Below the pieces are notes generated by a model, which was not told the DNA's origin, made no database searches, and saw only the letters and a list, made by a program, of their open reading frames with translations. A stretch of 64,000 bases of DNA from Aurantimonas aggregata (GTDB lineage Bacteria > Pseudomonadota > Alphaproteobacteria > Rhizobiales > Rhizobiaceae), in assembly GCF_010500835.1 (NCBI RefSeq), contig NZ_JAAAMJ010000001.1, positions 186,001-250,000 on the forward strand, in the 5' to 3' direction. A program made the translations under genes and the position numbers. Positions 7,016-41,132 of this stretch are shown here, one piece after another (positions within the stretch are counted from its first letter, which is position 1; every line of letters begins with the position of its first letter).

Positions 7016-7025
7016 GCCGGCGCTC

Positions 7026-12807: not shown

Positions 12808-12904
12808 CCGAGCCCGCGGCGCCATGATTGCTGTGCCTGACCGCACGCCGGCGGGGGTAAGCGTCTGCGCGGCTGGCCGCTCCTTCAGCGGCCGCGAGCG
12901 CCAG

Positions 12905-13774: not shown

Positions 13775-13946
13775 CGCGATCGGGGGATGGGCACGTTCCC
13801 CGCTTTGCCCCCTCGCCCACGGAAAAGCGAGCCCATCCTTCGAAATATTCGCCTGCCTTACTGTTCGCGCCCGTCCGCGATCACGCGGCTGCGGGCTTGG
13901 GAAGCTTGCCGATGGACAGCGGCCGCATGGTCGGTTCTATGGCCAC

Positions 13947-17656: not shown

Positions 17657-18163
17657 ATGACCGCCCCAACGCAAGCCGAACCGAAGCCGAGCGAACTCGT
17701 CCTGCGCGACCTTGAACTGCGCGACATCGAGCAAGTCGCCGAGTTCGAAGCCGCGATCGCGCGGCGGTCCTTTGCCGACGAGGCGGTGACGGACCTAGCG
17801 CATTACCGCAAGAAACTCGGCAAGCTGGTGAAATACGGCGGCGACTGGACGAAAGTCGCCGAGCGCGACGGGGTGATCGTCGGCTGGGCCTGGGTCGCGC
17901 CGCGGCAGAATTTCATAACCGGCGACGACTACGCCGATTTCCGTTCCTTCTACGTCGACGGCCAACGCGCCGGATCCGCCGCCTCCGTCATGCTGCTGCG
18001 GGCGGTTCTCGCCCACGCCACGGCGGCGGGCTACACGCGCATCGTCGGCCGCACCGCCACCTCCAACGAGGCGATGCGGGCACTCTACCGGCTGGCCGGC
18101 TTCGAGGAAAAGCACGTGGTCTACGAACTCGAGATCGGCGGCGTCGGCCGCGACCTCGGCTGA
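17657..18163 (+). CDS. GNAT family N-acetyltransferase
   Basis: This 168-residue protein is a GNAT acetyltransferase. It begins LVLRDLELRDIEQVAEFE, has a central DFRSFYVDGQRAGSAASVMLLRAVLAHA (acetyl-CoA region) and ends with TATSNEAMRALYRLAGFEE. It is divergent from speD across a shared 146-base intergenic stretch. Acetylation of a polyamine or related amine is possible from that context, but nothing in the sequence fixes the substrate. Confidence 0.82.
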   Translation: MTAPTQAEPKPSELVLRDLELRDIEQVAEFEAAIARRSFADEAVTDLAHYRKKLGKLVKYGGDWTKVAERDGVIVGWAWVAPRQNFITGDDYADFRSFYVDGQRAGSAASVMLLRAVLAHATAAGYTRIVGRTATSNEAMRALYRLAGFEEKHVVYELEIGGVGRDLG

Positions 18164-18282
18164 GCGCGACGCTCGAGCGTCCGGTCGTTTCGGCCTCGCC
18201 CCGGTTCATGCGCCACCGCGCTTCCGGTGGACGCTCCCCCCGCTCCCTTCCCCCCGCCGGCCGCTGCCGGCGAGGCCTCGCG

Positions 18283-19044: not shown

Positions 19045-19390
19045 CTGTCATCCCCTTGTTGCGCCGAAGGCAGAGAAGGCGCCGGTGGAGCCGGCAAGCG
19101 GCAGGTTCCGCGGCGCCTAGCACGGATTACGCCGGCCTTCGAGCCTCGCGCACCCGGGCACCTGCAGGGCGACCACAGTCCTCGCCCGGCATGACCCGTG
19201 AAAGCTGCTCCCCCTTGAATCCGATTGACTTGCCGAACCGGCAGCGTAGTGCCGGCACCATGGTTTTCTGGTGCCTCAGCAAAGGTTGGGAGGGCGGGCC
19301 CGGGCGCTGCCCCGTTCGGCGGTCAACGGTCTCGGCGCCGGGCATTTCTGCGCGCCGCAGCGTGACCGGTTCAATCCGGCTGCTGCCTCG
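19045..19390 (+). other. Intergenic region between divergent SDR and MFS genes
   Basis: This stretch of 346 bases holds the promoters of the SDR gene (minus) and the MFS gene (plus). I see no credible ORF, RNA gene or operator in it. ORFs here lack family resemblance and are GC-driven. Confidence 0.5.
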
Positions 19391-20593
19391 ATGACCCTCT
19401 CCCGTGCACTGCTTTGCGTCGCTGTCGGGGAAACCATCGTCTGGGCCGGCCTCTATTACCTCTTTCCCGCGCTGCTGCTGCGATGGGAAGAGGCCGAGGC
19501 CTGGCCGAAGACGCTGTTGACGGCCGCCTTCGCCGCGGCGGTGATGGTGTCGGCCGTCGTCTCGCCGCTCACCGGTCGGCTGATCGACCGGGGGCATGGG
19601 CCGCTGATGATGACCGGCTGCGCGCTGTTCGGCGCCGCGACCCTGGCCCTTTTGCCCTTCGCCGGTTCGGTCGAGATATTCGCCGCTCTCTGGCTGCTGA
19701 TCGGCATCGCCATGGGCGGCACCCTCTACGAACCCTGCTTCGCCCTGGTCACCCGCACGCGCGGCATCGACGCCCGGCGGGGAATCACCCTGATCACCCT
19801 CGTCGCCGGCTTTGCCGGCACGCTGTCCTTTCCGCTGAACCATTTCGTCGCAGAATCGGGCGACTGGCACGCGGCCACCTGGACCTTCGCGGTCCTCGTG
19901 GCGGCGGTGGGCGCACCGCTGCTGTGGCTCGGCACCAGCCATCTGGAAAAGGAGTGGCGCTCGCGGCAGCCGGCCGCCGCCCCTTCCGGATCGGCACGGA
20001 CGACTGTGCCGCCACCCGCCATCTGGAAAAGCCCAGTGTTCTGGTCGCTGGCGGCGGGCTTTTCGCTCCTCGGCGCCAACCACGGCATCGTCATCAATCA
20101 CCTGCTGCCGATCCTTGCCGATCGTGGCATCGGCGCCGGCACCGCGGTCTTTGCCGCCTCGATGATCGGCCCGATGCAGGTAGCCGGACGCCTCGCGCTG
20201 ATGGCCTCGGAGAAGCACGTCTCGGGCCGCGCCGTCGCGACCGGCTGCTTCGCCGCCATTCTCCTCGCGACCGTGTCGTTGCTGCTGGCCGAAGTCGAGC
20301 CAATCTTCGTCGCGCTGTTCGTCGTCCTGCAGGGTAGCGGCCACGGCATCATCAGCATCATGAAGCCGGTGATGATCCGCGAGGTGTTGGGCGAGACGAA
20401 CTTCGGCGCGATCAGTGGCTCCATTGCGGTGCCGTATCTGGCCGCTTTCGCCCTGTCGCCCTTTGCCGGATCGTTGCTCTGGGAACTCGGCGGCTACGAT
20501 CTGGCGCTCACCGTCGGCGGCATCTCGAGCCTCATCGGCCTCATGTGTTTCCGCATCGCCTCGCGCCCCCGACCAGGCGTCGCGGACGCCTGA
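19391..20593 (+). CDS. MFS transporter
   Basis: This 400-residue protein has about twelve membrane segments. The inter-helix motif SPLTGRLIDRGHGPLMMTGC resembles MFS motif A, and the family pattern continues in the second half (GSIAVPYLAAFALSPFAGSLLWELGGYD). Several close relatives are annotated only as MFS transporters and the substrate is unknown. The ATG at 19391 was chosen because the reading frame upstream of it shows no protein-like sequence. It ends just before the bchI operator region and marks the left border of the photosynthesis remnant. Confidence 0.85.
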   Translation: MTLSRALLCVAVGETIVWAGLYYLFPALLLRWEEAEAWPKTLLTAAFAAAVMVSAVVSPLTGRLIDRGHGPLMMTGCALFGAATLALLPFAGSVEIFAALWLLIGIAMGGTLYEPCFALVTRTRGIDARRGITLITLVAGFAGTLSFPLNHFVAESGDWHAATWTFAVLVAAVGAPLLWLGTSHLEKEWRSRQPAAAPSGSARTTVPPPAIWKSPVFWSLAAGFSLLGANHGIVINHLLPILADRGIGAGTAVFAASMIGPMQVAGRLALMASEKHVSGRAVATGCFAAILLATVSLLLAEVEPIFVALFVVLQGSGHGIISIMKPVMIREVLGETNFGAISGSIAVPYLAAFALSPFAGSLLWELGGYDLALTVGGISSLIGLMCFRIASRPRPGVADA

Positions 20594-20613: not shown

Positions 20614-20631
20614 TGTCAAACTGGCTTTACA
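20614..20631 (+). promoter_or_regulatory. PpsR/CrtJ operator upstream of bchI
   Basis: TGTCAAACTGGCTTTACA fits the PpsR/CrtJ palindrome TGT-N12-ACA exactly. It lies 40 bases before the bchI ATG, in an AT-richer stretch than its surroundings. PpsR represses bch, crt and puc promoters under oxygen. The site is intact although the gene it controls is frameshifted. Confidence 0.8.
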
Positions 20632-20671
20632 GTACTTCTCAAAAGCCAAGTTTACGGTTAGCTTAGTCTGC

Positions 20672-21681
20672 ATGAAAACCGTGTTCCCGTTTTCCGCCAT
20701 CGTCGGTCAGGACGCCATGCTCCTGGCACTGACCATTGCAGCCGTCGATCCCACGGTGGGGGGCGTCCTGGTCTTCGGGGACCGTGGCACCGGCAAGTCC
20801 ACCGCCGTGCGGGCCCTGGCGGCGGTGCTGCCGCCGATGCAGGCCAGCGACTGCGCCTATCGCTGGATCCGGCGCGCGCCGGCGAAGCCTGCGAGACATG
20901 CCGCGATGGCGGGACCGGCCAGACGAAACCCACGCCCGTTCCGGTGCCGGTCGTCGACCTGCCGCTCGGCGCGACCGAAGACCGCAACGTCGGCGCCCTC
21001 GATCTCGAGCGCGCGCTGACGGCGGGCGAAAAGCGCTTCGAGCCGGCGCTGCTGGCGCGGGCCAATCGCGGGTTCCTTTATATCGACGAGATCAACCTGC
21101 TCGAGGATCACCTCGTCGATCTCCTTCTCGACGTCGCGGCCTCCGGCGAGAACGTCGTCGAGCGCGAGGGGCTCAGCGTCCGCCATCCGGCGCGTTTCGT
21201 ACTGATCGGCAGTGGCAATCCCGAGGAGGGCGAACTCCGCCCGCAGCTGCTCGACCGCTTCGGCCTCTCCGTCGAAGTCACCACCCCGACCGACCTTGCG
21301 ACCCGCATCGAGGTAGTCAAGCGACGCGACGCTTTCGAGCGCGATCCGGAGAGCTTTGCCGCCTGCTACGACGCTGCCAACGCCGTCGTGCGCGAGACGA
21401 TCCTGGCAGGCCGGCAGCGCCTGCGGACGATCGAAGTCCCCGATGCGACGCTGGAGAAGGCCGCGCAGCTGTCGCTTCGCCTCGGTACCGACGGGCTCCG
21501 CGGCGAGCTGACACTGATGAGGGCTGCTCGGGCCCTGGCGGCGCTGGAGGGCGACACGATAGTCGAATGGACGCATCTCGCCCGCCTCGCCCCGCTGACG
21601 CCGTCGCATCGGCTGCGCCGCGATCCGCTCGACGAGGCAGGCTCGGCGGCGCGGGTAGAACGCGCCGTCGGCGAACTCTAA
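20672..21681 (+). pseudogene. bchI: Magnesium chelatase ATPase subunit I, frameshifted
   Basis: BchI is the AAA+ subunit that drives Mg insertion into protoporphyrin IX. The start ([18 protein letters not shown], Walker [10 protein letters not shown]) is in one frame up to about 20865. From there the match continues in another frame: [15 protein letters not shown], then [24 protein letters not shown] and YIDEINLLEDHLVDLLLDV, to the normal end LSHRLRRDPLDEAG-type (here SHRLRRDPLDEAG). Restoring one base at 20865/20866 gives the uninterrupted reading [15 protein letters not shown], so a single-base deletion is the defect. No large segment is missing. Without repair, the product would stop about 115 residues in. 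Part of the decayed photosynthesis cluster. Confidence 0.88.
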
Positions 21682-21781
21682 GCGGCGGCGTGAGCCCGGC
21701 GGCCCTCTCCGCCGTTACTGCCTTTCCCGCCAGTCCCGCGGACGAATTTCCTGAAGCGCCCGTCGACCTCGCTGCAGCCCT

Positions 21782-22838
21782 ATGAACCGAGGTGGTGGAG
21801 GCGGTGACCCTTTCGATCCCCGCATCGGCCTGCGGTTGCGCTCGCGGGCCGGGTTCGCCCGCGACAGGCTGATGAGCCGACTTCACGAACTGCTTCCGGT
21901 GGCCGAACCTGTCCGACGCATGCCGGCCTGTTGCGCGACCGATGCCCTCACCGGCGGCATCGACCTCGCCGCGACGCTCGCCGCCGGGCGCCCGGTCTCG
22001 AGGGCCGGCCTGCTCGCGACGGCCGATCAAGGCGTGCTCGTGGCGGCGATGGCCGAACGGATGGCGCCGCAGGCCTGCGGCCTCCTCGTCCAGTGCCTCG
22101 ATACGGGCGTCGTGCGCATCGAACGCGACGGGCTTTCCGCCGAGATCCGCCGAGATCCCGGCGCGGATCGGCCTTCTCGCGCTCGACGAGGGCATCGGCA
22201 CCGACGAGGCGCCGGCAAGCGCGCTTTGCGACCGGCTGGCGTTGTCGATCGAACTTGATGGGGCCGATCCCGTCGCGGCGATGCGCGGTCCAGCGACCGC
22301 ATCGCGATCGCGGCCGCGCGTCAACGACTGCTCGAGACCGAGACCGGCGACGAGGCGGCCGCCCTTCTCTGCCAGGCTGCCTGGGCGTTCGGCGTTGCCT
22401 CGCTGCGGGCCCCGATGCTGGCGCTGCGCGTGGCGCGCGCCACCGCCGCCCTGGCCGGCCGCGCGATCGTCGGCGAGAAGGATATCGAGGCGGCGATTCG
22501 CCTTGTCCTGGTTCCCCGTGCCACCCGGCTGCCGACGACTTCGGAACCCGACGACGAGCAGGAGCCGGATGCATCGCAGGGCGATGCGCCGCAGGACGAG
22601 CCGCCGCCGCCAAGCGGCAACGACATCGAAGAGGACGCGCAAGGGGGCGAGCCGCCGTCCGACCGAGTCGTCGACGTGGCGGAGGCGCGGCTGCCCGAAG
22701 GCCTGCTGGCGCGCCTCGCCAGCCAGGCCCGCCTCGATCTCGTGCGCCGCCCGTCCGGCCGCTCGGGCGCGGCGATACGAACGCTGCGCCAGGGCCGCGT
22801 CGTCGGCACGAAGGCGGGAGACCCGCGACGCGAGCGCC
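21782..22838 (+). pseudogene. bchD: Magnesium chelatase subunit D, frameshifted and 3'-truncated
   Basis: The 5' part (LRLRSRAGFARDRLMSRLHELLP, then GGIDLAATLAAGRPVSRAGLL and GVLVAAMAERM) matches the BchD N-terminal AAA-like region. A 10-bp tandem duplication at 22136-22155 shifts the frame. The match goes on as IPARIGLLALDEGIGTDE, then a one-base deletion near 22283 returns it to the first frame (DRIAIAAARQRLLETETGDEAAALL). The acidic proline-rich linker follows, then VVGTKAGDPRRERL. There the similarity stops: the C-terminal integrin-like vWA domain is missing and crtF sequence begins. In the start frame translation would end at about 22258. Confidence 0.87.
22136..22155 (+). repeat. 10-bp tandem duplication that frameshifts bchD
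   Basis: TCCGCCGAGA occurs twice without a gap (22136-22145 and 22146-22155). Removing one copy restores the expected BchD reading LSAEIPARIGLLALDE. This looks like replication slippage and is direct evidence of gene decay. Confidence 0.9.
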
Positions 22839-23370
22839 TCGGGTCCTCGATGTCGGCGGCGGCAGCGGCCGGTTCCTCACCGCCTTCGCCGCCCGCCATC
22901 CCGACGCGGAACTGCATCTCTTCGACCTGCCGGCCGTCGCGGCGGTCGCCCGCCAGCGCCTGCCCGGCTCCCGCAACGGCCGCCGGATCGCCGTGCACGA
23001 GGGCGACTTCTTCACCGACCCCCTGCCGCAGGATTACGACCTGGCGACGCTGGTCCGGATCGTCCACGACCATGACGACGAGTCGGTGGTCCCGCTGCTC
23101 ACCCGCCTCCGCGAAGGCCTGCGACCCGGCGGCGTGGTGATGATCGCCGAGCCGATGAGCGGCGATCGCCACAGCGGACCGGTCGCCGACGCGTATTTCG
23201 GGTTCTACCTCCGCGCCATGGGCAGCGGCCGCCCACGCACCCCCGACGAGATCGCCGGCCTGATGAAACGCGCCGGCCTGACGCGGGCCCGCGAGATCCC
23301 GACCTCCCTCCCCGTCGCCACGAAGATCGTCGCCGCGGAAATACCGCGCCGCAGCGTCGCATTTTCTTGA
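22839..23370 (+). pseudogene. crtF: Hydroxyneurosporene O-methyltransferase CrtF, C-terminal fragment
   Basis: About 176 residues of the AdoMet-binding half of CrtF remain: RVLDVGGGSGRFL, then AELHLFDLPAVA, VRIVHDHDDESVVPLL and GGVVMIAEPMSG, to a natural stop at 23370. CrtF methylates the carotenoid hydroxyl group in spheroidene or spirilloxanthin synthesis. The N-terminal half is gone: the fragment joins bchD directly at about 22826-22845, with no start codon of its own nearby. crtF preceding bchC is the usual order in photosynthesis clusters. A generic methyltransferase is less likely given that context. Confidence 0.8.
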
Positions 23371-23398
23371 CAGATGTATGTGTCAAGTTAGATTGACA
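23355..23398 (+). promoter_or_regulatory. Tandem PpsR/CrtJ operators upstream of bchC
   Basis: Two TGT-N12-ACA-type palindromes lie exactly 8 bases apart. Site 1 at 23355-23372 reads CGT-N12-ACA (one mismatch) and overlaps the end of crtF. Site 2 at 23381-23398 is TGTCAAGTTAGATTGACA, a perfect match. Two PpsR sites with an 8-bp spacer are the known arrangement of the Rhodobacter bchC promoter, where CrtJ/PpsR binds cooperatively. Confidence 0.85.
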
Positions 23399-23427
23399 GT
23401 AAGCCTACCCGATTCCTGGACCCCGTG

Positions 23428-24363
23428 ATGCTCAGCGACGCCATCCTCTTCCAGCAGCCCGGCCACCTCGCAGTCCGCCGCATCGGCCTGCGCGAGCCGC
23501 AGGCGGGAGACGTCCGGGTGGCGGTCGAGTATTGCGGCATCAGCACCGGCACCGAGCGCCTGCTCTTCACCGGCGACATGCCGCCCTTTCCCGGCCTCGG
23601 CTATCCGCTGGTTCCCGGCTACGAGGCGGTCGGACATGTCGTCGAGACGTACGGCGACAGCGATTTATCCATCGGCGACCGCGTCTTCGTGCCCGGCTCG
23701 AATGGCTTCGTCGACGCCCGCGGCCTGTTCGGCGCCTCGGCATCGCAGCTGTTGGCGCCCGGCCGTCGCGTCACCCGCATTCCCGAGTCGATGAGCGCCG
23801 ATGCCGTGCTGCTGGCGCTGGCCGCCACCGCCCACCATGCCATCATTGCGGCGGACGCCATCCCCGAACTCATCATCGGCCACGGCGTCCTCGGCCGCCT
23901 CTCGGCGCGGATCGCCCTGGCGCTCGGCGGCAACCCGATCGTCTGGGAAACAGAGCCCCGCCGCCACGCCGGCGCGGACGGCTACCATATCTGCCAGCCC
24001 TCGGACGATGCCCGCTCGGACTACGGCACGATCCTCGATGTCAGCGGCACGGGCGACATTCTCGACCTGTCGATACCGCTTCTGGCCCGCGGCGGGGAGA
24101 TCGTCCTCGCCGGCTTCTACAAGGCGCCGCTCAGCTTCGCCTTCCCGCCTGCCTTCATGCGCGAGGCGCACATCCGCGTCGCCGCCCAATGGCTGCCGGC
24201 GGACATGGCGGCCGTCACGCAGATGGTCGCTGGCGGCCGCCTGTCGCTGGCCGGCCTTGTCACCTACAGACATGGGCCCGCCGACGCCGGCGAAGCCTAC
24301 CGCACGGCGTTCGAGGACGTCTCCTGCCTGAAGATGATCCTGGAATGGGGAGCCACACAATGA
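23428..24363 (+). CDS. bchC: Bacteriochlorophyllide a dehydrogenase BchC
   Basis: This 311-residue zinc-alcohol-dehydrogenase-like protein matches BchC throughout: [33 protein letters not shown], then [30 protein letters not shown] and AEDVSCLK-type (here [14 protein letters not shown]). BchC oxidises the 3-hydroxyethyl group of bacteriochlorophyllide a. The frame is open over the full normal length, unlike its neighbours. A GTG at 23425 precedes the chosen ATG. Its stop overlaps the bchX start (ATGA). With its substrate-forming enzymes broken it has no obvious metabolic role here. Confidence 0.9.
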
Positions 24364-25377
24364 CCGCTCTGAGCGAGACCCGCGCCGCACGAGGCTCCAC
24401 CGAGGAGATGGTCGAACGCCTGCGCGCCGAAGCCGCCGAGCCGCTGGCAGCCGTTGCCTCCGGTCGGTCACCAAGGAAACCCAGATCATCGCGATCTACG
24501 GCAAGGGCGGCATCGGCAAGTCCTTCACCCTCGCCAATCTCAGCTACATGATGGCCCAGCAGGGCAAGCGCGTCCTGCTCATCGGCTGCGATCCGAAATC
24601 CGACACGACCTCGCTGCTGTTCGGCGGCAAGGCCTGCCCGACCATCATCCAGACCTCCTCGGCAAGAAGGCCGCCGGCGAGGAAGTCGACGTCTCCGACG
24701 TCTGCTTCAAGCGCGACGGCGTCTTTGCCATGGAGCGCGGCGGCCCGGAGGTCGGCCGGGGCTGCGGCGGGCGCGGCATCATCCACGGCTTCGAGCTGCT
24801 GGAGAAGTTCGGCTTCCACGAATGGGGATTCGACTACGTCCTGCTCGACTTCCTCGGGGACGTGGTCTGCGGCGGCTTCGGCCTGCCGATCGCCCGCGAC
24901 ATGTGCCAGAAGGTCATCGTCGTCGGCGCCAACGACCTGCAGTCGCTGTACGTCGCCAACAATGTCTGCTCGGCGGTGGAATATTTCCGCAAGCTCGGCG
25001 GCAATGTCGGCGTCGCCGGCATGGTCGTGAACAAGGACGACGGCACAGGCGAGGCCGCGGCCTTCGCCAAGGCGGTCGGCATCCCGGTTCTCTCCTCGAT
25101 CCCGGCCGACGACGATATCCGCCGCAAGAGCGCCAATTACGAGATCGTCGGGATCCCCGGCGGCCGCTGGGCCCCGCTCTTCGAGGAGCTGGCCCAGAAC
25201 GTCGCCGACGCGCCGCCGGTGCATCCGACGCCGTTGACGCAGGACGGCCTGCTGTCCCTGTTCTCCAGCGAGGAGAACAGCCGCAACGTCGTGCTGCAGC
25301 CGGCAAGCCAGGCCGACATGCGCGGCAAGCCGGTTGCCGTCCGCCCGTCCCTCGAAGTCGTCTACGACGACGCGTGA
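24360..25377 (+). pseudogene. bchX: Chlorophyllide a reductase iron protein BchX, two frameshifts
   Basis: BchX is the nitrogenase-like [4Fe-4S] ATPase subunit of chlorophyllide a reductase. The N-terminus ([17 protein letters not shown]) starts in one frame. The P-loop part ([20 protein letters not shown] and [21 protein letters not shown]) is in a second frame, and the rest ([20 protein letters not shown] through PSLEVVYDDA) in a third. Two one-base deletions explain this: one at about 24440-24462 and one at 24660/24661, where TCCTC-GGC should read TCC-TCN-GGC. The first is within the weakly conserved N-terminus. Length is otherwise normal. ATGA overlap with bchC shows the former operon. 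Confidence 0.88.
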
Positions 25378-25383
25378 GGGGGC

Positions 25384-26172
25384 ATGACAATGGATTACGG
25401 CCCGCGCGATCAGGCACCCGGCAACACCGACATGACGGACGGCACGAGCCCCGCTGCCCCGGCACCGCGCGAGGGTGATGCGTCCTGCCATGCCGGCAAG
25501 GCCGAGATGCGCGCCGCGGCCGCCGCAGCCGGCAAGAGCGAGATCCTCGACCAATATGCCAAGGACTATCCGCAAGGACCGCACGACCAGCCGCAATCCA
25601 TGTGCCCGGCCTTCGGCTCGCTGCGCGTCGGCCTCAGAATGCGGCGAACCGCGACCGTCCTCTCCGGCTCGGCCTGCTGCGTCTACGGCCTGACCTTCAC
25701 GGCGCATTTCTACGGCGCACGCCGCACCGTCGGCTACGTGCCGTTCAATTCCGAGACGCTGGTCACCGGCAAGCTCTTCGAGGATATCCGCGAGGCGGTC
25801 CACAATCTGGCCGACCCGGATCTCTACGACGCCATCGTCGTCACCAATCTCTGCGTGCCGACGGCCTCGGGCGTGCCGCTGCGGCTGCTTCCGAAATCGA
25901 TCGACGGCGTCCGCATCATCGGCATCGACGTTCCGGGCTTCGGCGTGCCGACCCATGCCGAGGCCAAGGACATCCTCGCCGGCGCCATGCTCGCCTATGC
26001 CCGCGGCGAGGCCGAGCAAGGTCCGGTCGCCGCGCCCCGGGCGCCCCGCACCGGCCGGCCGAGCGTCGCCCTGCTCGGCGAGATGTTTCCCGCCGACCCG
26101 ATGGTCATCGGCCGCCTGCTCGAGCCGCTCGGCCTTGCCGCCGGCCCGGCGGTCCCCGACCCGGGAATGGCG
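25384..26172 (+). pseudogene. bchY: Chlorophyllide a reductase subunit BchY, frameshifted and 3'-truncated
   Basis: About the first half of BchY is present: MCPAFGSLRVGLRMRRTATV, SGSACCVYGLTFTAHFYGARRTVGYVPFNSETLVTGKLFEDIREAVH and LLGEMFPADPMVIGRLLEPLGLAAGPAVP. At 26154-26157 a run of four C appears to have gained one base: the expected TREWR follows in another frame. The match then ends at about 26172. The second half, bchZ and everything normally downstream are missing. GAGGGG precedes the ATG. In the original frame the ORF happens to stay open into ppaA, giving a 598-codon ORF; I regard that as chance. Confidence 0.87.
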
Positions 26173-26298
26173 CGGGAATTCTGGCATTCGACCATAAGAA
26201 GTAATTGGCACGCCGGCGGGAGGGACCGATGGCTGGGAGTCTGCGTGAGAATGGGCTGGGCCGCGATCACGCTGCGACCCGATCCCACCATTCCTACA

Positions 26299-26316
26299 CG
26301 TCAAGCGCGATTGACA
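26299..26316 (+). promoter_or_regulatory. PpsR-like operator upstream of ppaA
   Basis: CGTCAAGCGCGATTGACA keeps the TGT-N12-ACA spacing with one mismatch (C for T in the first base). It sits 36 bases before the ppaA ATG. The position argues that the sequence from here onward is the original ppaA promoter and that the deletion joint lies to the left, between 26172 and 26299. Confidence 0.6.
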
Positions 26317-26352
26317 CTCGCAGCTCGCCGTCACCAGCCGGGGAGCCGTCCG

Positions 26353-27180
26353 ATGCCGCCCCCGGAGAGCGGCTGGGAAAACCGGCTCGCCCAGGCGATC
26401 GTGTCGATGGTGATCCCGCGGCTCTACGATGCCCACCAGACGTCCCGCGCCTCGTCGGCAGCGGTCGAGACCCTTCGGCGTCGAACCCATGCCGACCGGT
26501 TTCTCGGCCTGGTCCTCTCCGACCGACAGGAGGCGCAATGGCAGTTCCTGGTCGATCTGGTCGAAGAAGGGCTCGAACTCGACGCGATCTTTCTCCACGT
26601 GATGGCGCCGACGATCCGGCAGATCGGCGTGCTCTGGGAGGAGGACCGGCTCAGCTTCGTCGACGTCACCACCAAGTCCTCGCACCTCCAGCAGATGATG
26701 CGGCGCCTGGCGAGCGAATTGGCCGTGACCTCGCAGCGGACGACACGGCGCCTGCTGCTGGCGCCGGTTCCGGGCGAGCAGCATACGTTCGGGCTTTTCG
26801 TCCTGGCGGAGATGTTCCTCAGGGCAGGCTGGGCGACGCTGGTCGAGCCGGCCGCAACCTGGGAAGAGCTGCACCACGATGTTGCCACCCAGCAATTCGA
26901 TGCGATCGGCCTCAGCGTCGGCAGCGAGCGGATGCTGGAGGGGATGGCCGGTTCGGTCGCCTCGTTACGCTCGGCCTCCCGATCGCCCGATCTGCGGGTG
27001 TTTCTGGGCGGCTGGGCTTTTCAGGCGACCCGGGAACCGCTAGATGGCTATGGTGCGGATTTGGTTGAGACGGACGCGCTAGCAGCCATAGCGAAGGCGG
27101 ATTTGTTATGCCCGCGCCACGACTGCGCAGTGAGCAGTTACCAGTCAATCCCGGAGGGACTTGGCATAAATAGCGGGTAA
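26353..27180 (+). CDS. ppaA: PpaA/AerR-type cobalamin-binding photosynthesis regulator
   Basis: This 275-residue protein has an N-terminal helical cap (about residues 8-125, ENRLAQAIVSMVIPRLYDAH and VDLVEEGLELDAIFLHVMAPTIRQIGVLW). A B12-binding/SCHIC-like domain follows, with PVPGEQHTFGLFVLAEMFLRAG (His144 matches the cobalamin-ligand histidine of AerR) and VFLGGWAF. AerR/PpaA is the antirepressor that senses light through B12 and acts on PpsR/CrtJ. The ATG at 26353 has GGGGAG 8 bases upstream and a PpsR-like site before it. It is intact and ends 1 base before ppsR, the usual ppaA-ppsR order. Confidence 0.85.
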   Translation: MPPPESGWENRLAQAIVSMVIPRLYDAHQTSRASSAAVETLRRRTHADRFLGLVLSDRQEAQWQFLVDLVEEGLELDAIFLHVMAPTIRQIGVLWEEDRLSFVDVTTKSSHLQQMMRRLASELAVTSQRTTRRLLLAPVPGEQHTFGLFVLAEMFLRAGWATLVEPAATWEELHHDVATQQFDAIGLSVGSERMLEGMAGSVASLRSASRSPDLRVFLGGWAFQATREPLDGYGADLVETDALAAIAKADLLCPRHDCAVSSYQSIPEGLGINSG

Positions 27181-27181
27181 C

Positions 27182-28621
27182 ATGGGAATTAATTACAACA
27201 ATTCCGGCAGCGCCTTTTCCGATCCGGGACGCTCCTTCGCTAATCTCGAGGCAACGCTCGTCGCCAACATGGTGACGGCATCGACCGATATTGCGCTCCT
27301 GATCGACTCCAAGGGGATCATCGCAGACGTCGCCGTCCGCGATGCTGAACTGTTTGGCGACGTGCCCGCCAGCTGGATCGGCCAGCCCTTCATCGACGTC
27401 GTGACGGTCGAGTGCCGCTCCAAGGTCGGCCGCATGCTCAGCGACCGCAATCCGGGCGAAGCGGCGCCGCGCCGCGAGATCAACCATCCCATGCCCGGCG
27501 GGCCGGACCTGCCGATCAGCTACGCGATGCTGTCGCTGGCCAGGGACGGCGCGCGCCTCGCACTCGGCCGCGACCTGCGCACCATCTCGATCCTGCAGCA
27601 GAAGCTGGTCGAGACGCAGTTGGCGATGGAGAGCGACTACGCCCGCCTGCAGAACGCCGAATCCCAGTACCGCGTCTTCTTCGACACTTCGTCCGACCCG
27701 ATCGTCATCGCCGACGCGGCCAGTGGCAAGATCCTGGAAGCCAATTCAGCAGCCCGCCGGATGCTGGAGAGCGACGGGCGCCAGGTCGCCGGTGTCACGA
27801 TCGAATCGCTGTTCGCCGAACGCAGCGTGCGGGACCTCGACAAGCTCGTCGCCGCGGCCCGCGCCTCCGGTGACATCGAGATCGCCGACCTCGCCTTGCG
27901 CGACGACGACAGCGCCACCGGCATATCGGCACGCTTTTATCGCCAGCATGGCGCAACCCGCCTTTCCCTCCGGTTCGGGCGCAACGGCAACGACAGCCTG
28001 TCGCCGGGTGCCCACGACCTGATCGCCAAGGCCGGCCGCGAACTGCCCGACGCGATCGTCGTCGTCGACAACGACCTGAAGATCGTCGCGGCCAACGAGA
28101 GCTTCCTTGATCTGGCCGAGATCGCCACAGGGCGTCAGGCCACTGGAAAGTCTCTGGGCGACATCATCGGCCGGCGCGGCGTCGAAATGGCCGTGGTCAA
28201 GACCGCCGTCGATGCCGAGGGCGTCGTGCGCAGCTTTTCCACCACGCTCCATACCCAGCACGGCGGTCTGGTGGACGTGGAACTCAGCGGGTCGATCCTG
28301 AAAGAGAGCGACCAGCAGTTCTACGGCTTCTCGTTGCGAAGGGCGGCGCGCGCCCCACAGCTTGCCTCCGCCACCCAGCCCCTGCGGTCGGCCAACGACA
28401 TGACCGGTCTCGTCGGGCGGGTGCCGCTGCGCGAGATCGTTCGCGAAACTGCCGACATCATCGAGCAATTGTGCATCGAGGCCGCGCTCGATCTCACCCG
28501 CAACAACCGCGCCTCGGCCGCCGAGATGCTCGGCCTCAGCCGCCAGAGCCTCTATTCCAAGCTCCGGCGCTACGGCATCGGCGATCCCTCCCCCGACTCC
28601 GGCGACAATTCCGTCAACTGA
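27182..28621 (+). CDS. ppsR: Transcriptional repressor PpsR/CrtJ
   Basis: This 479-residue regulator is full length. PAS-like domains occupy about residues 25-140, 160-275 and 285-395. The second starts ESQYRVFFDTSSDPIVIADAASGK and the third LPDAIVVVDNDLKIVAANESF. A Fis-type helix-turn-helix closes the protein (NNRASAAEMLGLSRQSLYSKLRRYGIGD). Cys431, just before the HTH (EQLCIEAAL), matches the redox-active cysteine of Rhodobacter PpsR. The only other cysteine is near residue 78. PpsR represses bch, crt and puc genes in oxygen. Its operators are found at four promoters here. It is undamaged although most of its expected targets are broken or gone. Confidence 0.92.
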   Translation: MGINYNNSGSAFSDPGRSFANLEATLVANMVTASTDIALLIDSKGIIADVAVRDAELFGDVPASWIGQPFIDVVTVECRSKVGRMLSDRNPGEAAPRREINHPMPGGPDLPISYAMLSLARDGARLALGRDLRTISILQQKLVETQLAMESDYARLQNAESQYRVFFDTSSDPIVIADAASGKILEANSAARRMLESDGRQVAGVTIESLFAERSVRDLDKLVAAARASGDIEIADLALRDDDSATGISARFYRQHGATRLSLRFGRNGNDSLSPGAHDLIAKAGRELPDAIVVVDNDLKIVAANESFLDLAEIATGRQATGKSLGDIIGRRGVEMAVVKTAVDAEGVVRSFSTTLHTQHGGLVDVELSGSILKESDQQFYGFSLRRAARAPQLASATQPLRSANDMTGLVGRVPLREIVRETADIIEQLCIEAALDLTRNNRASAAEMLGLSRQSLYSKLRRYGIGDPSPDSGDNSVN

Positions 28622-28694
28622 CGCTACGCAGGAAGCTACAGGATATGCCCCATCCGGGGTGATCCGGCAATTTGTCACAAGCCAGGGCCAAATG

Positions 28695-28712
28695 TGTCAA
28701 GATTGATTGACA
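28695..28712 (+). promoter_or_regulatory. PpsR/CrtJ operator upstream of bchG
   Basis: TGTCAAGATTGATTGACA is a perfect TGT-N12-ACA palindrome 29 bases before the bchG ATG. It should control the bchG-bch2-bchP operon. Its sequence is close to site 2 of bchC. Confidence 0.83.
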
Positions 28713-28741
28713 CTCTACGATCTCCCGCATAGCCTCGGGAC

Positions 28742-29662
28742 ATGAGCCGCCTGATCCTCGACGCACCCCGACAGACGCGTCCGACCGCCTCGGCGGCGCT
28801 CGAGCTCCTGAAGCCGATCACCTGGTTCGCCCCGATGTGGGCCTTCGGCTGCGGCGCCATATCCGCCCGCTCCTCGGCCCCCGCCGATGGCAGCGACGTC
28901 TTCTGGATCGTCATCGCCGGGATCGTCCTGTCAGGCCCCCTGCTCTGCGGCGCCAGCCAGGCCGTCAACGACTGGTTCGACCGGCATGTCGACGCGATCA
29001 ACGAACCGCAGCGGCCGATCCCCTCCGGCCGCATGCCTGGCCGATCGGGTCTGTACCTGGCGATCGTCTGGACGCTGCTGTCGCTCCTCGTCGCGGCTCT
29101 GTTCGGCCCCTGGGTGCTGGTTGCGGCGATTGCCGGCTGCGGGCTGGCCTGGGCCTACAGCGCCCCGCCCTTTCGCCTCAAGCGCAATGGCTGGTGGGGC
29201 AATGCCGCCGTCGCCATCGCCTATGAAGGCCTCGCCTGGTTCACCGGCGCCGCCGTGGTAGCTGGCGGCCTGCCCGATGGGCGGATCATCCTCCTCGCCG
29301 GGCTCTACAGCATCGGCGCGCATGGCATCATGACCCTCAACGACTTCAAGTCGGTCGAAGGTGATACGGCGCTCGGCGTCCGCACCCTGCCGGTGCAGTA
29401 TGGCGTCACCACTGCCGCGATCCTCGCCTGTGTCGTCATGCTGACGCCGCAGCTGCTGGTCGTCGCCCTGCTCTTCCTCTGGTCTGCGCCGATCTACGCG
29501 CTCATCGTCGCTGGACTGATCGTCGCCCAGCTGGCGCTGATGCGCCGGCTGCTGGCCGCACCCCGCGAGCGCGCGCCGTGGTACAACGCTACCGGCACCA
29601 GCCTCTACGTTGCCGGCATGATGGTCTCGGCATTTGCCGTCAGCAGCGTGATCGGGGGCTGA
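28742..29662 (+). CDS. bchG: Bacteriochlorophyll/chlorophyll synthase BchG
   Basis: This 306-residue UbiA-family prenyltransferase joins geranylgeranyl or phytyl diphosphate to bacteriochlorophyllide a. The signature NDWFDRHVDAINEPQRPIPSG spans residues 76-96 and holds the diphosphate-Mg aspartates Asp80 and Asp84. HGIMTLNDFKSVEGDTALGVRTLPVQYG is the second conserved region. About eight or nine membrane helices are seen. The length is normal and no frameshift is visible. It heads an operon with bch2 and bchP. Confidence 0.93.
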   Translation: MSRLILDAPRQTRPTASAALELLKPITWFAPMWAFGCGAISARSSAPADGSDVFWIVIAGIVLSGPLLCGASQAVNDWFDRHVDAINEPQRPIPSGRMPGRSGLYLAIVWTLLSLLVAALFGPWVLVAAIAGCGLAWAYSAPPFRLKRNGWWGNAAVAIAYEGLAWFTGAAVVAGGLPDGRIILLAGLYSIGAHGIMTLNDFKSVEGDTALGVRTLPVQYGVTTAAILACVVMLTPQLLVVALLFLWSAPIYALIVAGLIVAQLALMRRLLAAPRERAPWYNATGTSLYVAGMMVSAFAVSSVIGG

Positions 29663-29667
29663 GAGCG

Positions 29668-30990
29668 ATGGGGCTGTCTTGGCTGCAGATCGTCCGCCTC
29701 GCTCTGGTCCAGACGGCGCTCGGCGCGATGGTGGTGCTAACCACGGCGACGATGAACCGCGTCATGGTGGTGGAACTGGCGCTGCCTGCCATGCTGGCCG
29801 GCGCCCTGGTCGCCCTGCATTATGCGGTGCAGATGCTCCGTCCCCGCTTCGGCCACGGCGCCGATGGCGGACGGCGCCGCACCCCCTGGATCATCGGCGG
29901 CATGGTCGTCCTGGCAATCGGCACGGTCGGCGCCGCCGCAGCGACGGCGCTGATGTCCGCCTCGCCGCTTGCCGGGACGTTGGCCGCAGCTATTGCCTTC
30001 CTCCTCATCGGCGCCGGCGTGGGCGCGGCCGGCACGAACCTGCTGACCCTCGTCGCCACCAGCGTCGCCCCCACTCGCCGCGCCCCGGCGGCGACCCTGA
30101 TCTGGATCATGATGATCGCCGGCTTCGCGGTGACCACCGGGATCGCCGGGGGCTTTCTCGATCCCAATTCGCCACTGCGGCTGGTCGTCGTGACATCGGT
30201 CGTGGCCGGCCTGGCTCTGGTCCTGGCGATCGCCGCCGTCCACGGCATCGAGTCCACGTCGCCGACGGCCCGGCTTCCCGCGGCGCGACAGCGTCCAGCC
30301 TTCCGCCAGGCGTTCGGCGAAGTCTGGCAGGAACGGCAGACGCGCCGCTTCACGATCTTCGTCTTCGTCTCGATGCTCGCCTACAGCGCCCAGGACCTCA
30401 TCCTCGAACCCTTTGCCGGCATCGTCTTCGCGATGACGCCGGGCCAGACGACGCAATTGTCCAGCGTCCAGCATGGCGGCGTCGTCCTCGGCATGGTTCT
30501 GGTGGCTCTGGCCGGCGCCTTGCTGTCCCGCCGCTTTCCGGGCCTGTTGCGCGGCTTCTGCGTCCTCGGCTGCGTTGGCTCCGCCGCCAGTCTGGCGATG
30601 CTCGCCACGGCCGGCGGCAGCGCCTTCCCGCTGCGCGAAGCGGTCTTCGCCCTCGGCCTCAGCAACGGTGTCTTCGCGGTGGCGGCAATCGGCTCGATGA
30701 TGGCGCTCGCCGGCCAAGGCACCAGAGCCCGCGAAGGCGTGCGGATGGGCCTCTGGGGCGCGGCGCAGGCGATCGCCTTCGGCGCCGGCGGCTTTGCCGG
30801 AACGGTTCTCGTCGACGCGGCGACGGCCTTTCTCGGCCGGGCCGACGCGGCCTACAGCGTCGTCTTCGTCCTCGAGGCCGCTTTGTTCCTGGTCTCGGCG
30901 GCCCTCGCCCTCGGGGCGATCTCGGTGACCGGCGCCCGCCAGGTTTCGACGGCCGCGAGCGCCGGCAACGATCGGGCGGTGCCCGCATGA
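29668..30990 (+). CDS. BCH/PucC family MFS-like protein (Bch2/ORF428 type)
   Basis: This 440-residue polytopic protein belongs to the BCH/PucC family (PF03209 type). Twelve hydrophobic segments and the segments RFGHGADGGRRRTPWIIGGM, AYSAQDLILEPFAGIVFAMTPGQTTQLSS and ATLIWIMMIAGFAVTTGIAGG are typical. Relatives help assemble light-harvesting complexes or deliver bacteriochlorophyll. The member located between bchG and bchP is usually called bch2 or ORF428. It starts 5 bases after bchG and its stop overlaps the possible upstream bchP start. It is intact, though no light-harvesting genes are present. Confidence 0.88.
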   Translation: MGLSWLQIVRLALVQTALGAMVVLTTATMNRVMVVELALPAMLAGALVALHYAVQMLRPRFGHGADGGRRRTPWIIGGMVVLAIGTVGAAAATALMSASPLAGTLAAAIAFLLIGAGVGAAGTNLLTLVATSVAPTRRAPAATLIWIMMIAGFAVTTGIAGGFLDPNSPLRLVVVTSVVAGLALVLAIAAVHGIESTSPTARLPAARQRPAFRQAFGEVWQERQTRRFTIFVFVSMLAYSAQDLILEPFAGIVFAMTPGQTTQLSSVQHGGVVLGMVLVALAGALLSRRFPGLLRGFCVLGCVGSAASLAMLATAGGSAFPLREAVFALGLSNGVFAVAAIGSMMALAGQGTRAREGVRMGLWGAAQAIAFGAGGFAGTVLVDAATAFLGRADAAYSVVFVLEAALFLVSAALALGAISVTGARQVSTAASAGNDRAVPA

Positions 30991-31007
30991 ACGAAAAGGG
31001 TGGCGGC

Positions 31008-32192
31008 ATGGACAGCGTGGATGTCGTGGTGGTCGGCGGCGGCCCGGCGGGCGCAACCGCCGCCGAAATGCTGGCGCGAGCCGGACATTCGGTCGTGCTG
31101 CTCGACCGGGATGGGCGGATCAAGCCCTGCGGCGGAGCGATCCCGCCGCGGCTGGTGAGCGATTTCGAAATTCCTCCCGAACTCATCGTCGCGCGGATAT
31201 CGTCGGCGCAGATGGTCGCGCCGTCGGAACGGCGTGTCCCGATGCCGATCGAGGGCGGCGGCTATGTCGGCATGGTCGATCGCGAGCATTTCGACGAGTG
31301 GCTGCGCGTCCGCGCCGCCGCTGCTGGCGCCCGGCGGATTACCGGAACGTTCGAGCGGATCGAGCGAGATGCCGACGGCAGCGCGGTCGTTCGCTACCGC
31401 GCTGCCAGCCCTGCGAAGGAAGAAGCCTTTGGCGAAATCACGGCACGGCTGGTGATCGGCGCCGATGGTGCGCGGTCGGCGGTCGGCCGACAGAACGTCG
31501 AGGGCGCCGAGCGGATGCCGTTCGTTTTCGCCTATCACGAGATCGTCCGCTCGCCCGTCGCCAGCAAGGCTGATTTCGATCCCCGCCGCTGCGGCGTCTA
31601 CTACCAGGGCGTGATCTCGCCGGATTTCTACGGCTGGGTGTTCCCGCATGGTGCGACCACCAGCATCGGCACCGGCAGCGCAGAGAAGGGCTATGGCCTG
31701 CGGCCGGCCGTAGCGCGACTGCGGGCCACCACCGGGCTCGACCGGGTCGAGACGATCCGCCGGGAGGGCGCGCCGATCCCGCTGAAGCCGCTGAAGCGCT
31801 GGGACAACGGCCGCGACATCATCCTCGCCGGCGATGCCGCCGGCGTTGTCGCACCGGCATCCGGCGAAGGCATCTACTACGCCATGATCAGTGCGAGGAT
31901 GGTCGCCGAAGCCGGCCTCGCCACCGGCGACGCACCGGCGCTCGCAACGGCCCGCAAGGCCTTCATGCGCGAGCATGGTCGCGTTTTCTGGATCCTCGGC
32001 ATCATGCAGACCTTCTGGTACCGCTCCGACCGGCAGCGCGAACGCTTCGTCGCCATCTGCCGCGACAAGGACGTGCAGCGCCTGACCTGGGAGGCCTACA
32101 TGAACAAGAAGCTGGTGCCGGCGCGGCCCGCCGCGCACATCAAGATCTTCTTCAAGGACCTCGCGCACCTGCTTCGGCTGGTTTCGCCCTGA
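31008..32192 (+). CDS. bchP: Geranylgeranyl reductase BchP
   Basis: This 394-residue FAD enzyme has DVVVVGGGPAGATAAEMLARAGHSVVLLDRD at its N-terminus. KPCGGAIPPRLVSDF, YYQGVISPDFYGWVFPHG and LAGDAAGVVAPASGEGIYYAM follow. BchP reduces the geranylgeranyl tail of bacteriochlorophyll to phytyl. An ATG at 30987 overlaps the bch2 stop. I chose 31008 because AAGGG lies 7 bases before it and it gives the usual family length. Intact; last gene of the bchG operon and right border of the remnant. Reduction of another prenyl compound is an alternative present role. Confidence 0.92.
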   Translation: MDSVDVVVVGGGPAGATAAEMLARAGHSVVLLDRDGRIKPCGGAIPPRLVSDFEIPPELIVARISSAQMVAPSERRVPMPIEGGGYVGMVDREHFDEWLRVRAAAAGARRITGTFERIERDADGSAVVRYRAASPAKEEAFGEITARLVIGADGARSAVGRQNVEGAERMPFVFAYHEIVRSPVASKADFDPRRCGVYYQGVISPDFYGWVFPHGATTSIGTGSAEKGYGLRPAVARLRATTGLDRVETIRREGAPIPLKPLKRWDNGRDIILAGDAAGVVAPASGEGIYYAMISARMVAEAGLATGDAPALATARKAFMREHGRVFWILGIMQTFWYRSDRQRERFVAICRDKDVQRLTWEAYMNKKLVPARPAAHIKIFFKDLAHLLRLVSP

Positions 32193-32556: not shown

Positions 32557-33882
32557 ATGTGGAAACCGCAACTAGAGAATGGCAAAATCCGCTTCCGGCA
32601 GATCGTCGACCAGATCGTGACCGACATCGCTGCCGGGACGCTGCAGGCAGGCGATCGCCTGCCGCCGCAGCGCGAGTTGGCGACGAGCCTCAACGTCAAG
32701 CTTTCGACCGTCAGCCGCGCCTATCAGGAGGCGGCCCGCCAGCGGCTGGTCGGCGGCGAAGTCGGGCGCGGCACCTATGTCCTGAAGCCGGGCCTCGACG
32801 CCAATCTGTTTGCCGCGCCCCCCGCCGCGCCGCCGGTCTACGATCTGACCACGGCGGTTCCCGCCGCGCCGCCCGGCGACGATTCCCTCGCCGCCTCGCT
32901 GGCGAGTCTCACGCCGCGCGACCACGCGCAGCTTGCGGGCTATCCGCAACAGCGCCTGATCGAGCGCACCCGCCTTGCCATCTGCGACTGGCTGGCCTGG
33001 CGGGGCATGGAACGGCGGCCCCGGATCATCGTCCCCTGCGCCGGCGCTCACGCTGCGCTGCAGGCGCTGCTGTTGGAAAAGACCCGTCCCGGCGACCCGA
33101 TCCTCGTCGAATCGTTCACCTTCCCGGGCATCAAGATGGTGGCCAAACAGTTGCGCCTGCGCCTCGTGCCGATTGAGCAGGACGGGGAAGGCGTGACGCC
33201 GGAAGGGCTGGACGCTGCGGCCGGCGGCTCGGCCGCGCGGATCGCCATTCTCGTGCCGACCCTGCAGAATCCCACCGGCGCGGTGATGGGCGAAGCGCGG
33301 CGACGTGCGGTGGCGGCGGTGGCCGCGCGCCACGACCTGACCGTGATCGAGGACGACGTCTACGGTCCGCTGGGCGCCCTGCCGCCCCTGTCGGGAGAAC
33401 TCGGCCGGCGCGGCGTCATCGTGTCGAGCCTCTCCCAGACCGTCCTGCCCGGCCTGCGCTTCGGCTTCGTCGCTGGCGATGACCCCGACCTCGAGAAGCT
33501 GCAGGAAAGCCTGCCCCTGACGACGTGGCTGATGTCGCCCTTTTCGATGCTCATCGGCGCGAAATGGATCGACAGCGGCGTCGCCCAGGCGCGAGTTGAA
33601 TGGCAGCGCACGGAGATCGCCGCCCGCTGGCGCCAGATGCTCGCCCTGCTCGGCCCGACCGACCAGCTCCCGGCGCCACACGCCTGGTTGCGGGTCAAGG
33701 GGGATCCGGACGAGATGGTCGACAGATGCCGGGCGGCAGGCGTGGGCGTCGTACCGGCCGGCATGTTCGCCGTGGGCCGGAAGTCGGCGGCGCGGATCCG
33801 AATCTGCCTCACCGCCGCAGCGACCCGGAACGACCTCGGCGAGGCCCTGCGGATCCTCGCCGGCCTCGGGATCCGCGCTTGA
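32557..33882 (+). CDS. MocR-type transcriptional regulator (GntR HTH plus PLP aminotransferase-like domain)
   Basis: This 441-residue protein has an N-terminal GntR winged helix (FRQIVDQIVTDIAAGTLQAGDRLPPQRELATSLNV, then STVSRAYQEAARQRLV). A fold-type I aminotransferase-like domain follows with LVPTLQNPTGAVMG and VIEDDVYG. A conserved lysine for PLP is expected in the SSLSQTVLPGLRFGF region, but serine-rich sequence without an obvious lysine appears there (VSSLSQTVLPGLR). PLP binding is therefore uncertain. MocR proteins often control a neighbouring transporter or PLP-related gene. No clear target adjoins it. Confidence 0.85.
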   Translation: MWKPQLENGKIRFRQIVDQIVTDIAAGTLQAGDRLPPQRELATSLNVKLSTVSRAYQEAARQRLVGGEVGRGTYVLKPGLDANLFAAPPAAPPVYDLTTAVPAAPPGDDSLAASLASLTPRDHAQLAGYPQQRLIERTRLAICDWLAWRGMERRPRIIVPCAGAHAALQALLLEKTRPGDPILVESFTFPGIKMVAKQLRLRLVPIEQDGEGVTPEGLDAAAGGSAARIAILVPTLQNPTGAVMGEARRRAVAAVAARHDLTVIEDDVYGPLGALPPLSGELGRRGVIVSSLSQTVLPGLRFGFVAGDDPDLEKLQESLPLTTWLMSPFSMLIGAKWIDSGVAQARVEWQRTEIAARWRQMLALLGPTDQLPAPHAWLRVKGDPDEMVDRCRAAGVGVVPAGMFAVGRKSAARIRICLTAAATRNDLGEALRILAGLGIRA

Positions 33883-39552: not shown

Positions 39553-40035
39553 GTGGCAATTCGACGACTGGCTCTGGCGGCAGCCGGGCTGACCCTCGCC
39601 TTCACGGCCGCGAGCCCCGCCTTGGCGGAGGACGTGACCTACCGAAACGAACGCTTCGGGACGACCGCCACTTTCCCGGCCGAGCTGTTTCCCGATCAGC
39701 TACCGGCGCCGACCAATGGCGACGGCCTCGGCTGGACGTCGCCCGAAGGGGCGGAGATATTCATCTACGCGCGACCGCGCCAGGACGGCGAAACGCCTCG
39801 CACCGTGGTGCGCGACCGCGGCTCGGTGGATGACGTCACCTACGACCGCTCCGGGCGGCGCTGGGTCGTCGTGTCGGGCTACCGGGACGGCCGCATCTTC
39901 TACGAGCGCTACATCTTCCGCGGCGATCTCGTGCATTCAGTGTCGATCCGTTATCCCGAGACACTGCGCGCCACCTACGATCCGCTGGTCGGTCCCGTGA
40001 CGATGTCCCTGCAGGGTCCGTCGAGCGGCTCATAG
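39553..40035 (+). CDS. Hypothetical secreted protein
   Basis: This 160-residue protein starts with a GTG and a clear Sec signal peptide (IRRLALAAAGLTLAFTAASPALA, cleavage before ED). The mature part is a small beta-rich domain (TYRNERFGTTATFPAELF, RWVVVSGYRDGRIFYERYIF). I do not recognise a family with a known role. It starts 4 bases after moaA and may be co-transcribed with it. It is probably periplasmic. Confidence 0.7.
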   Translation: MAIRRLALAAAGLTLAFTAASPALAEDVTYRNERFGTTATFPAELFPDQLPAPTNGDGLGWTSPEGAEIFIYARPRQDGETPRTVVRDRGSVDDVTYDRSGRRWVVVSGYRDGRIFYERYIFRGDLVHSVSIRYPETLRATYDPLVGPVTMSLQGPSSGS

Positions 40036-40168
40036 TCCTCGCCGGCTGGCAGAGATTGTCACTTCTGCAGGATCGCGCGGCAGACAACCGCAATGTGGCC
40101 TCGCCAAGCGGCAGGGGTGAGCGTAAGGGAGACTGATCGTCCCTTCCGCAGTTTTCCCGGCCGTCACC

Positions 40169-41065: not shown

Positions 41066-41132
41066 TGATCACCGTCCCGACCCGAAGCTGCCAGCCCGCT
41101 GCTTCGCCGCTCGATCCCGCAGGAAAGTCCGC

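Follow-up and report, generated by a model that had tools for sequence, protein, structure and literature searches.

The locus examined here, a 64 kb stretch of the Aurantimonas aggregata genome (G000:C1:186001-250000; "the window" below means this whole stretch), carries a row of bacteriochlorophyll and related genes, which raises the question of whether it holds a photosynthesis gene cluster (PGC) at work, a part of one that came from elsewhere, or one caught in the course of being lost. The assembly comprises 4.86 Mb in 95 contigs, with a completeness estimate of 100. Via tblastn, 11 PGC genes were found to leave remnants in the window, in the order bchI, bchD, crtF, bchC, bchX, bchY, ppaA, ppsR, bchG, bch2 and bchP (bch2, crtF and ppaA being identified with R. 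litoralis proteins). NCBIfam cut-offs were exceeded by bchC, ppsR, bchG and bchP; the pieces of bchI, bchD, bchX and bchY scored below their own. Thus the gene identities and order of a decayed PGC, as proposed by a first-pass annotation made from the letters of the window, were borne out by profile matches and tblastn. With a probability of roughly 0.93, we conclude that the window contains the PGC common to two congeners (G123 and G126), and that this PGC has recently been decaying after its usefulness ended in the window species.

The two congeners provide the reference for this conclusion. BchC exceeded its cut-off in three of the eight genomes of the genus, namely those of the window species, G123 and G126; of the seven congeners, the latter two have the MocR neighbour most similar to that of the window (86 and 83%, versus 58% for the next) and are the closest on this measure. 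In G123 and G126 the cluster lies in one place and consists of bchIDO-tspO-crtCD-crtF-bchCXYZ-pufBALMC, then puhE-acsF-puhBA-lhaA-bchMLHBNF, then ppaA-ppsR-bchG-bch2-bchP; puhC was matched in G126 only. With the R. litoralis proteins, which are distant references, neither puhC nor ppaA was matched in G123, where ppaA is nonetheless visible as an open reading frame (ORF). The flanks of both clusters align with the window on both sides at 81-87% (blastn). Because both congeners carry a complete PGC there, with flanks aligning, the window holds, as judged from the alignments, a cluster of the G123/G126 type minus parts: locus, flanks, gene order and PpsR-type sites are shared, whereas two large deletions in the window have no equivalent among the congener PGCs, which are without large gaps. 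The comparison with intact relatives that had been called for therefore found the whole cluster at the same site in G123 and G126, and these intact copies support the claim that loss of phototrophy was caught midway. We infer that the three species inherited the cluster from an ancestor they have in common. Among the named loci, BchG of the window is nearest to that of Jiella (J. flava 77%, J. pacifica 74%), which would suggest Aurantimonadaceae; it is nearer still to that of G027, from a related genus (81%).

The lesions relative to both congeners are the following.

20672..21681, + strand: bchI, 1-base loss near 20865 (two frames in tblastn; gap versus both congeners)
21782..22841, + strand: bchD, reduced to its 5' part, which has three out-of-frame indels (NCBIfam fragments; alignment)
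22841..22842, no strand: deletion junction 1; bchD 3', bchO, tspO, crtC, crtD and crtF 5' gone (blastn blocks)
22842..23370, + strand: crtF, reduced to its 3' part, beginning at about residue 199 of 368 (tblastn)
24360..25377, + strand: bchX, 1-base losses near 24461 and 24662 (NCBIfam, tblastn, alignment)
25384..26166, + strand: bchY 5' remnant, 1-base gain near 26154, then cut (200 of 422 profile positions)
26166..26181, no strand: deletion junction 2; bchY 3', bchZ, pufBALMC, puhE, acsF, puhCBA, lhaA and bchMLHBNF gone (blastn blocks)

Alignment with both congeners thus confirmed that bchI, bchD, crtF, bchX and bchY are broken. Eight out-of-frame indels were unique to the window: one in bchI, three in bchD, two in bchX, one in bchY and one in ppaA. 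Those in bchD are 7 bases lost, 10 gained and 1 lost, the 10-base gain being a tandem duplication; the G123 BchD protein matches the window in three pieces, and bchY is truncated at about half its length. Intergenic differences (2 bases near 25378 and 28665, 1 base near 33892 and 34031, the last adjoining an uncertain gene start) were not counted as lesions. Deletion 1 removed ~5.4 kb (positions 24494-29902 of the G126 stretch after turning; blastn blocks versus G126 and G123) and deletion 2 removed ~23 kb (33233-56384 in the G126 stretch), from mid-bchY to just upstream of ppaA; inspection by eye revealed no long match, as microhomology, at the ends of either. Deletion 2 leaves an open frame (25384-27180, 598 amino acids) which fuses the first half of BchY to PpaA; this frame is probably due to chance, and it could be transcribed from the bchC operator. 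Among the interior genes described as absent, bchO, bchZ, puf, puh and bchFNBHLM were indeed deleted, but crtI, crtB and crtE are another matter: since neither crtB nor crtE was matched in 80 kb of either congener, and crtI had no match of its own there (rows overlapping a better match being filtered), they were probably not part of the PGC originally, and their loss from the window cluster was dropped as a candidate event. The carotenoid-side loss in the window consists of crtC, crtD and the 5' part of crtF (plus tspO and bchO).

The remaining genes of the cluster are these.

23425..24363, + strand: bchC, open; 3 changes at near-invariant sites (TIGR01202 380.5 bits, cut-off 291.25)
26229..27180, + strand: ppaA/aerR, 1-base gain in the leader near 26344; domain open from the ATG at 26353 (alignment)
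27182..28621, + strand: ppsR, intact (TIGR02040 396.4 bits, cut-off 275.4; residues 1-479 of 479 of G123 in one frame)
28742..29662, + strand: bchG, intact (TIGR01476 340.5 bits, cut-off 212.3; 0 of 77 near-invariant columns changed)
29668..30990, + strand: bch2, BCD-family transporter, open, in-frame 6-base loss (1 of 81 near-invariant columns changed)
30987..32192, + strand: bchP, geranylgeranyl reductase, open, in-frame 9-base loss (TIGR02023 492.1 bits, cut-off 343.3; 1 of 114 near-invariant columns changed)

Six genes had been called open by the first-pass annotation. This holds for ppsR, bchG, bch2 and bchP, which align to the G123 proteins end to end in a single frame, and for bchC, a single open frame across 98% of the references; it fails for ppaA, whose leader is frameshifted. 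Moreover bchC, though open, may already be drifting: three of its 79 near-invariant columns (identity of 97% or more in 46 homologues) were changed in the window, and none in the congeners. An initial bchC test (nine distinct sequences, 9 of 120 columns) overstated the drift and was superseded by this one. Retention of bchC by selection was considered and rejected, as 0.94 kb free of indels is of little information and bchC has the most window-only changes at near-invariant sites.

In ppaA the 1-base gain lies about nine bases ahead of an internal start (ATG in the window and in G123, TTG in G126), which a GGGGAG run precedes in the window; the conserved domain is also open as the end of the 598-residue frame. 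By analogy, a short PpaA form may still be made: in the parts of the report seen, AerR of R. capsulatus, a member of the same family, occurs in long and short forms, and a one-base insertion after the long-form start leaves the short form only, with pigments strongly reduced (PMC6199135). The R. capsulatus delta-LAerR allele and window ppaA share a one-base insertion in the leader that spares the short-form start; however, the former was engineered in a working phototroph, whereas the latter is natural and sits in a dead cluster, with its short form predicted only. The natural frameshift thus resembles an R. capsulatus allele, made in the laboratory, by which pigment synthesis is reduced.

Upstream of three genes, putative PpsR-type operators were recognised.

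20614..20631, + strand: putative PpsR-type operator before bchI (TGT-N12-ACA; similar site in G123 and G126)
23381..23398, + strand: putative PpsR-type operator before bchC (identical in the window, G123 and G126)
28695..28712, + strand: putative PpsR-type operator before bchG (TGT-N12-ACA; identical in G123, similar in G126)

TGT-N12-ACA matched eight times in the window versus 3.35 expected, a number reached by two of 100 shuffles. The three sites end about 26-40 bases ahead of the starts of bchI, bchC and bchG, and both congeners have corresponding sites at these genes, in agreement with the claim that operators are still recognisable. A further pair of TGT-N12-ACA sites (42934-42951 and 43036-43053, 102 bases apart) lies far from the cluster; a similar pair occurs in G123, and one of the two sites in G126.

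A functional second cluster was sought in the whole assembly and none was found. There was no match to PF00124 (pufLM), PF03967 (puhA), PF00556 (antenna pufA/pufB; two matches each in G123 and G126) or AcsF, and the bchY stump was the only match to PF00148, the BchN/B/Y/Z family, so bchN, bchB and bchZ are absent. Furthermore, bchH, bchL, bchM, bchF and bchO were not found by tblastn in the 64 kb window, to which that search was confined. The assembly therefore lacks what a functional PGC requires, i.e., reaction-centre genes, antenna genes and a complete bch pathway. It presents instead two traits of a pseudogenised cluster: disabling lesions relative to intact orthologues at the locus, and no second copy of the genes searched for. 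On the other hand, two phytoene-synthase-family genes persist elsewhere in the genome, and thus carotenoids may still be made.

How old is the decay? Under a codon model over the three species, with omega estimated on the window branch, bchI (0.037), bchX (0.017) and the 5' part of bchY (0.037) each differed from 1. Among cluster genes only bchD showed a raised omega: the pooled broken genes gave 0.035 versus a background of 0.045 without bchD (p=0.36) and 0.065 versus 0.059 with it (p=0.62). Decay is recent, as most broken genes keep a low omega on the window branch; the dN/dS check that had been suggested thus indicates recency and not relaxation, bchD excepted. We also counted changes at near-invariant columns, defined by an identity of 97% or more in homologues from outside the genus (893 columns in 11 genes; homologues with less than 80% coverage, with internal stops, identical to others or below per-gene identity floors were excluded, columns around the bchD indels were masked, and columns where the window has a gap or a stop were left uncounted). 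Changes found in the window only numbered 8 of 893 (bchI 2, bchC 3, bchX 1, bch2 1 and bchP 1), versus none for G123 only and two for G126 only, changes shared with a congener being set aside; the difference from G123 was significant (p=0.008). If all eight were neutral, the neutral part of the window branch since the split would be, as a rough estimate, ~0.9% (0.4-1.8%).

Several results weigh against this picture: i) the crtF 3' remnant (omega 0.075, p=0.068) and bchD (0.28, p=0.09) were inseparable from 1, and bchD exceeded its background of 0.09 (p=0.013; 0.29 and p=0.022 with the indel surroundings masked), so the loss may be stepwise or partly older; ii) the signal of relaxed constraint is thin, as the excess of near-invariant changes over G126 was not significant (p=0.11), nor, with shared changes kept, were Fisher tests of the window versus the congeners (left half p=0.18, right half p=0.11) or of left versus right half (p=0.15); iii) synonymous change was near saturation (t about 0.5-3 per codon), which makes branch estimates rough; iv) a single isolate is represented, by its assembly only, and laboratory or private mutations could account for the lesions; v) among the eight small indels, six concern one base each (four losses, two gains), and these taken by themselves could be explained as sequencing error. 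With its raised omega and three indels bchD is a candidate for the first gene lost, a weak one because the intact flanking mocR also differs in omega (p=0.014).

Remains of this kind are rare. In an even sample of the family (121 genomes from 109 genera), Photo_RC exceeded its cut-off in 12 genomes, with a weak match below it in G056, and BchG did so in 13, i.e., the same 12 plus the window genome. Among 397 sampled genomes of the order, 75 had Photo_RC, 75 had BchC (counted at E of 1e-60 or better) and 74 had both, the two lists being compared by reading. The one genome with a reaction centre and without BchC was G149 (93% complete, 510 contigs), and the one with BchC and without a reaction centre was that of the window. 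The 1-in-397 count suggests that half-decayed PGCs are short-lived, which fits a fast clean-up of dead clusters.

Within the genus, G041 and G121 show a different pattern: the SDR gene left of the cluster directly adjoins the MocR gene, the 40 kb read contained no PGC match, and the ArsK-like gene was not matched either. This empty site, with flanks joined and no remnant, is what clean whole-cluster loss would leave, and the window departs from it. (G122, G124 and G125 have no close MocR copy; of the five genomes of the genus lacking BchC, G041 and G121 were those read at the site.) Because the neighbours adjoin there without cluster or remnant, the PGC was either gained in the ancestor of the three species or cleanly lost in the others; either way, the loss in the window is later and separate.

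The same two empty sites are what could be cited for a partial cluster that came by horizontal transfer and was never functional here, as the PGC was gained or cleanly lost within the genus. Yet the whole cluster occupies the same place in the same order in both closest congeners, the window sequences keep the reading frames of these congeners apart from breaks at discrete lesions, and the window's own branch bears the mark of long purifying selection. Because intact copies occupy the same locus in two congeners, the remains reflect loss and not a half-arrived transfer, an explanation we find barely credible. A sequencing or assembly artefact, in which read errors account for the indels and the assembly left out the missing DNA, would draw on the 95 contigs and on the six single-base indels, and is likewise very improbable. 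Here the flanks serve as the control, the immediate neighbours being:

19271..20593, + strand: ArsK-like MFS transporter, left neighbour bounding the PGC remains, intact; in the block missing from G041 and G121
32557..33882, + strand: MocR-like regulator, right neighbour bounding the PGC remains, intact; locus marker in G041, G121, G123 and G126

The lesions fall in the cluster. Of 25 flanking ORFs chosen by a rule, 23 show no stop in the alignment with G123 (some over part of their length only), and the two with a stop (47135-47539 and 47574-48530) look like shadow frames. In the reverse direction, the G123 flank proteins with a match in the window, partial in some cases, do so in one frame; the exception is the start of 6992-7618, where the first residues of the counterpart lie in another frame and the start codon is uncertain. 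(Counting frameshifts in the flanks by blastn was abandoned for this protein-level comparison, as it gave many compensating gap pairs.) Moreover, the 10-base tandem duplication and 7-base loss are atypical of read errors, both large junctions lie within one 934-kb contig, and searches of the entire assembly found none of the reaction-centre, antenna, cyclase and BchN/B/Z genes looked for. Thus the first-pass view that frameshifts are confined to the cluster and that sequencing error is unlikely gains support from the mixed lesion types and clean flanking genes, on assembly-level evidence.

Harder to set aside, though unlikely, is the proposal that ppsR-bchG-bch2-bchP, perhaps with a short PpaA, is kept by selection for a non-photosynthetic job (e.g., geranylgeranyl reduction, or control of other genes by PpsR/PpaA) while the left half decays. 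Out-of-frame indels number seven in 20672-26166 (5.5 kb) and none in 27182-32192 (5.0 kb) (binomial p=0.011, Poisson p=0.0017), the indels that bch2 and bchP show in the window alone preserve the frame, omega is low in ppsR, bchG, bch2 and bchP, and the ppaA frameshift leaves an internal start. In the portions of the sources seen, AerR/PpaA-like regulators act beyond photosynthesis: the AerR regulon of R. capsulatus extends well beyond it (PMC6199135), and a PpaA-like protein of R. rubrum likewise regulates beyond it (PMC10734443). However, bch2 and bchP each carry one near-invariant change (among 77 and 76 homologues) where the congeners carry none; the neutral fraction, 1.45% (0.5-3.2) in the left half and 0.47% (0.06-1.7) in the right, shows no clear difference, and the Fisher test of left versus right half gave p=0.15; low omega mostly records the time before the loss; and BchG without a reaction centre (1 of 121) or BchC without one (1 of 397) was seen in the window genome only. 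The evidence hints at longer constraint on the right half, but that a working module of short-form ppaA, ppsR, bchG, bch2 and bchP has actually been re-purposed for non-photosynthetic use while the rest decays appears distinctly unlikely.

Recent decay of a formerly shared PGC remains the preferred reading, and its course can be proposed as follows. Selection on phototrophy would have been relaxed or reversed in the window species; slippage-type small indels would then have disabled bchI, bchD, bchX, bchY and the ppaA leader, and two big deletions would have removed the reaction-centre, antenna, protochlorophyllide-reductase and cyclase genes and some carotenoid genes. The strain is predicted to have lost the ability to form either bacteriochlorophyll or a reaction centre. 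On this proposal bchC, ppsR, bchG, bch2, bchP and the three operators would remain mainly for want of elapsed time, with constraint perhaps longer-lasting on the ppsR-bchP half.

The process of PGC loss is already known; what seems unusual is to have an intermediate together with intact relatives for comparison. As far as the available part of the report goes, Citromicrobium JLT1363 is, as predicted for the window species, a non-phototroph beside a phototrophic relative with the same flanking genes, yet its loss was clean, one hypothetical gene standing in place of the PGC, whereas the window keeps half-decayed remains; the same report expects a dead PGC to be removed by selection (Zheng et al. 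2012, PMC3338782). In the portions seen of reports on Rhodobacteraceae, where PGC gains and losses were modelled (Brinkmann et al. 2018, PMC6052148), and on Erythrobacter (PMC4919336), phototrophs are scattered among non-phototrophs and loss is deduced from presence/absence, while the window shows actual remnants. The terms "pseudogen", "remnant" and "frameshift" are absent from the retrieved text of PMC6052148, and "remnant" from that of PMC4919336 and of PMC12700997, which was checked for partial clusters; among the matches listed from the open-access literature, as far as their text was available, no description of a half-decayed alphaproteobacterial PGC was found. Phototrophy is scattered over Proteobacteria, and loss versus transfer is usually argued from presence/absence. 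An intermediate reveals which genes were lost, by which kinds of mutation and at what approximate pace, and with intact copies in relatives the order of lesions becomes testable with a few more strains. The window cluster thus represents a rarely caught middle step in the loss of bacterial photosynthesis.

A few minor observations concern PGCs elsewhere and the rest of the window. One genome of the order (G224:C1) has two pufLM pairs (3853802-3855485 and 4119434-4121090), about 265 kb apart. In two related genera the contig with pufLM is not the one with bchG-bch2-bchP (L131 and L133 of G020; L134-L136 of G027), and the PGC of these genomes seems to be split. Two segments of the window, 12001-14000 (0.227) and 40001-42000 (-0.257), have a strong AT skew compared with most of it. 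Left of the cluster, G123 (C1 about 967600-975400) and G126 carry an extra block of ~8 kb, absent from the window at 18163-18262 and unrelated to photosynthesis; by eye, one of its ORFs has CxxxCxxC, which we take to be the motif of radical-SAM enzymes, and another presumably starts like a pyridoxal phosphate (PLP)-decarboxylase.

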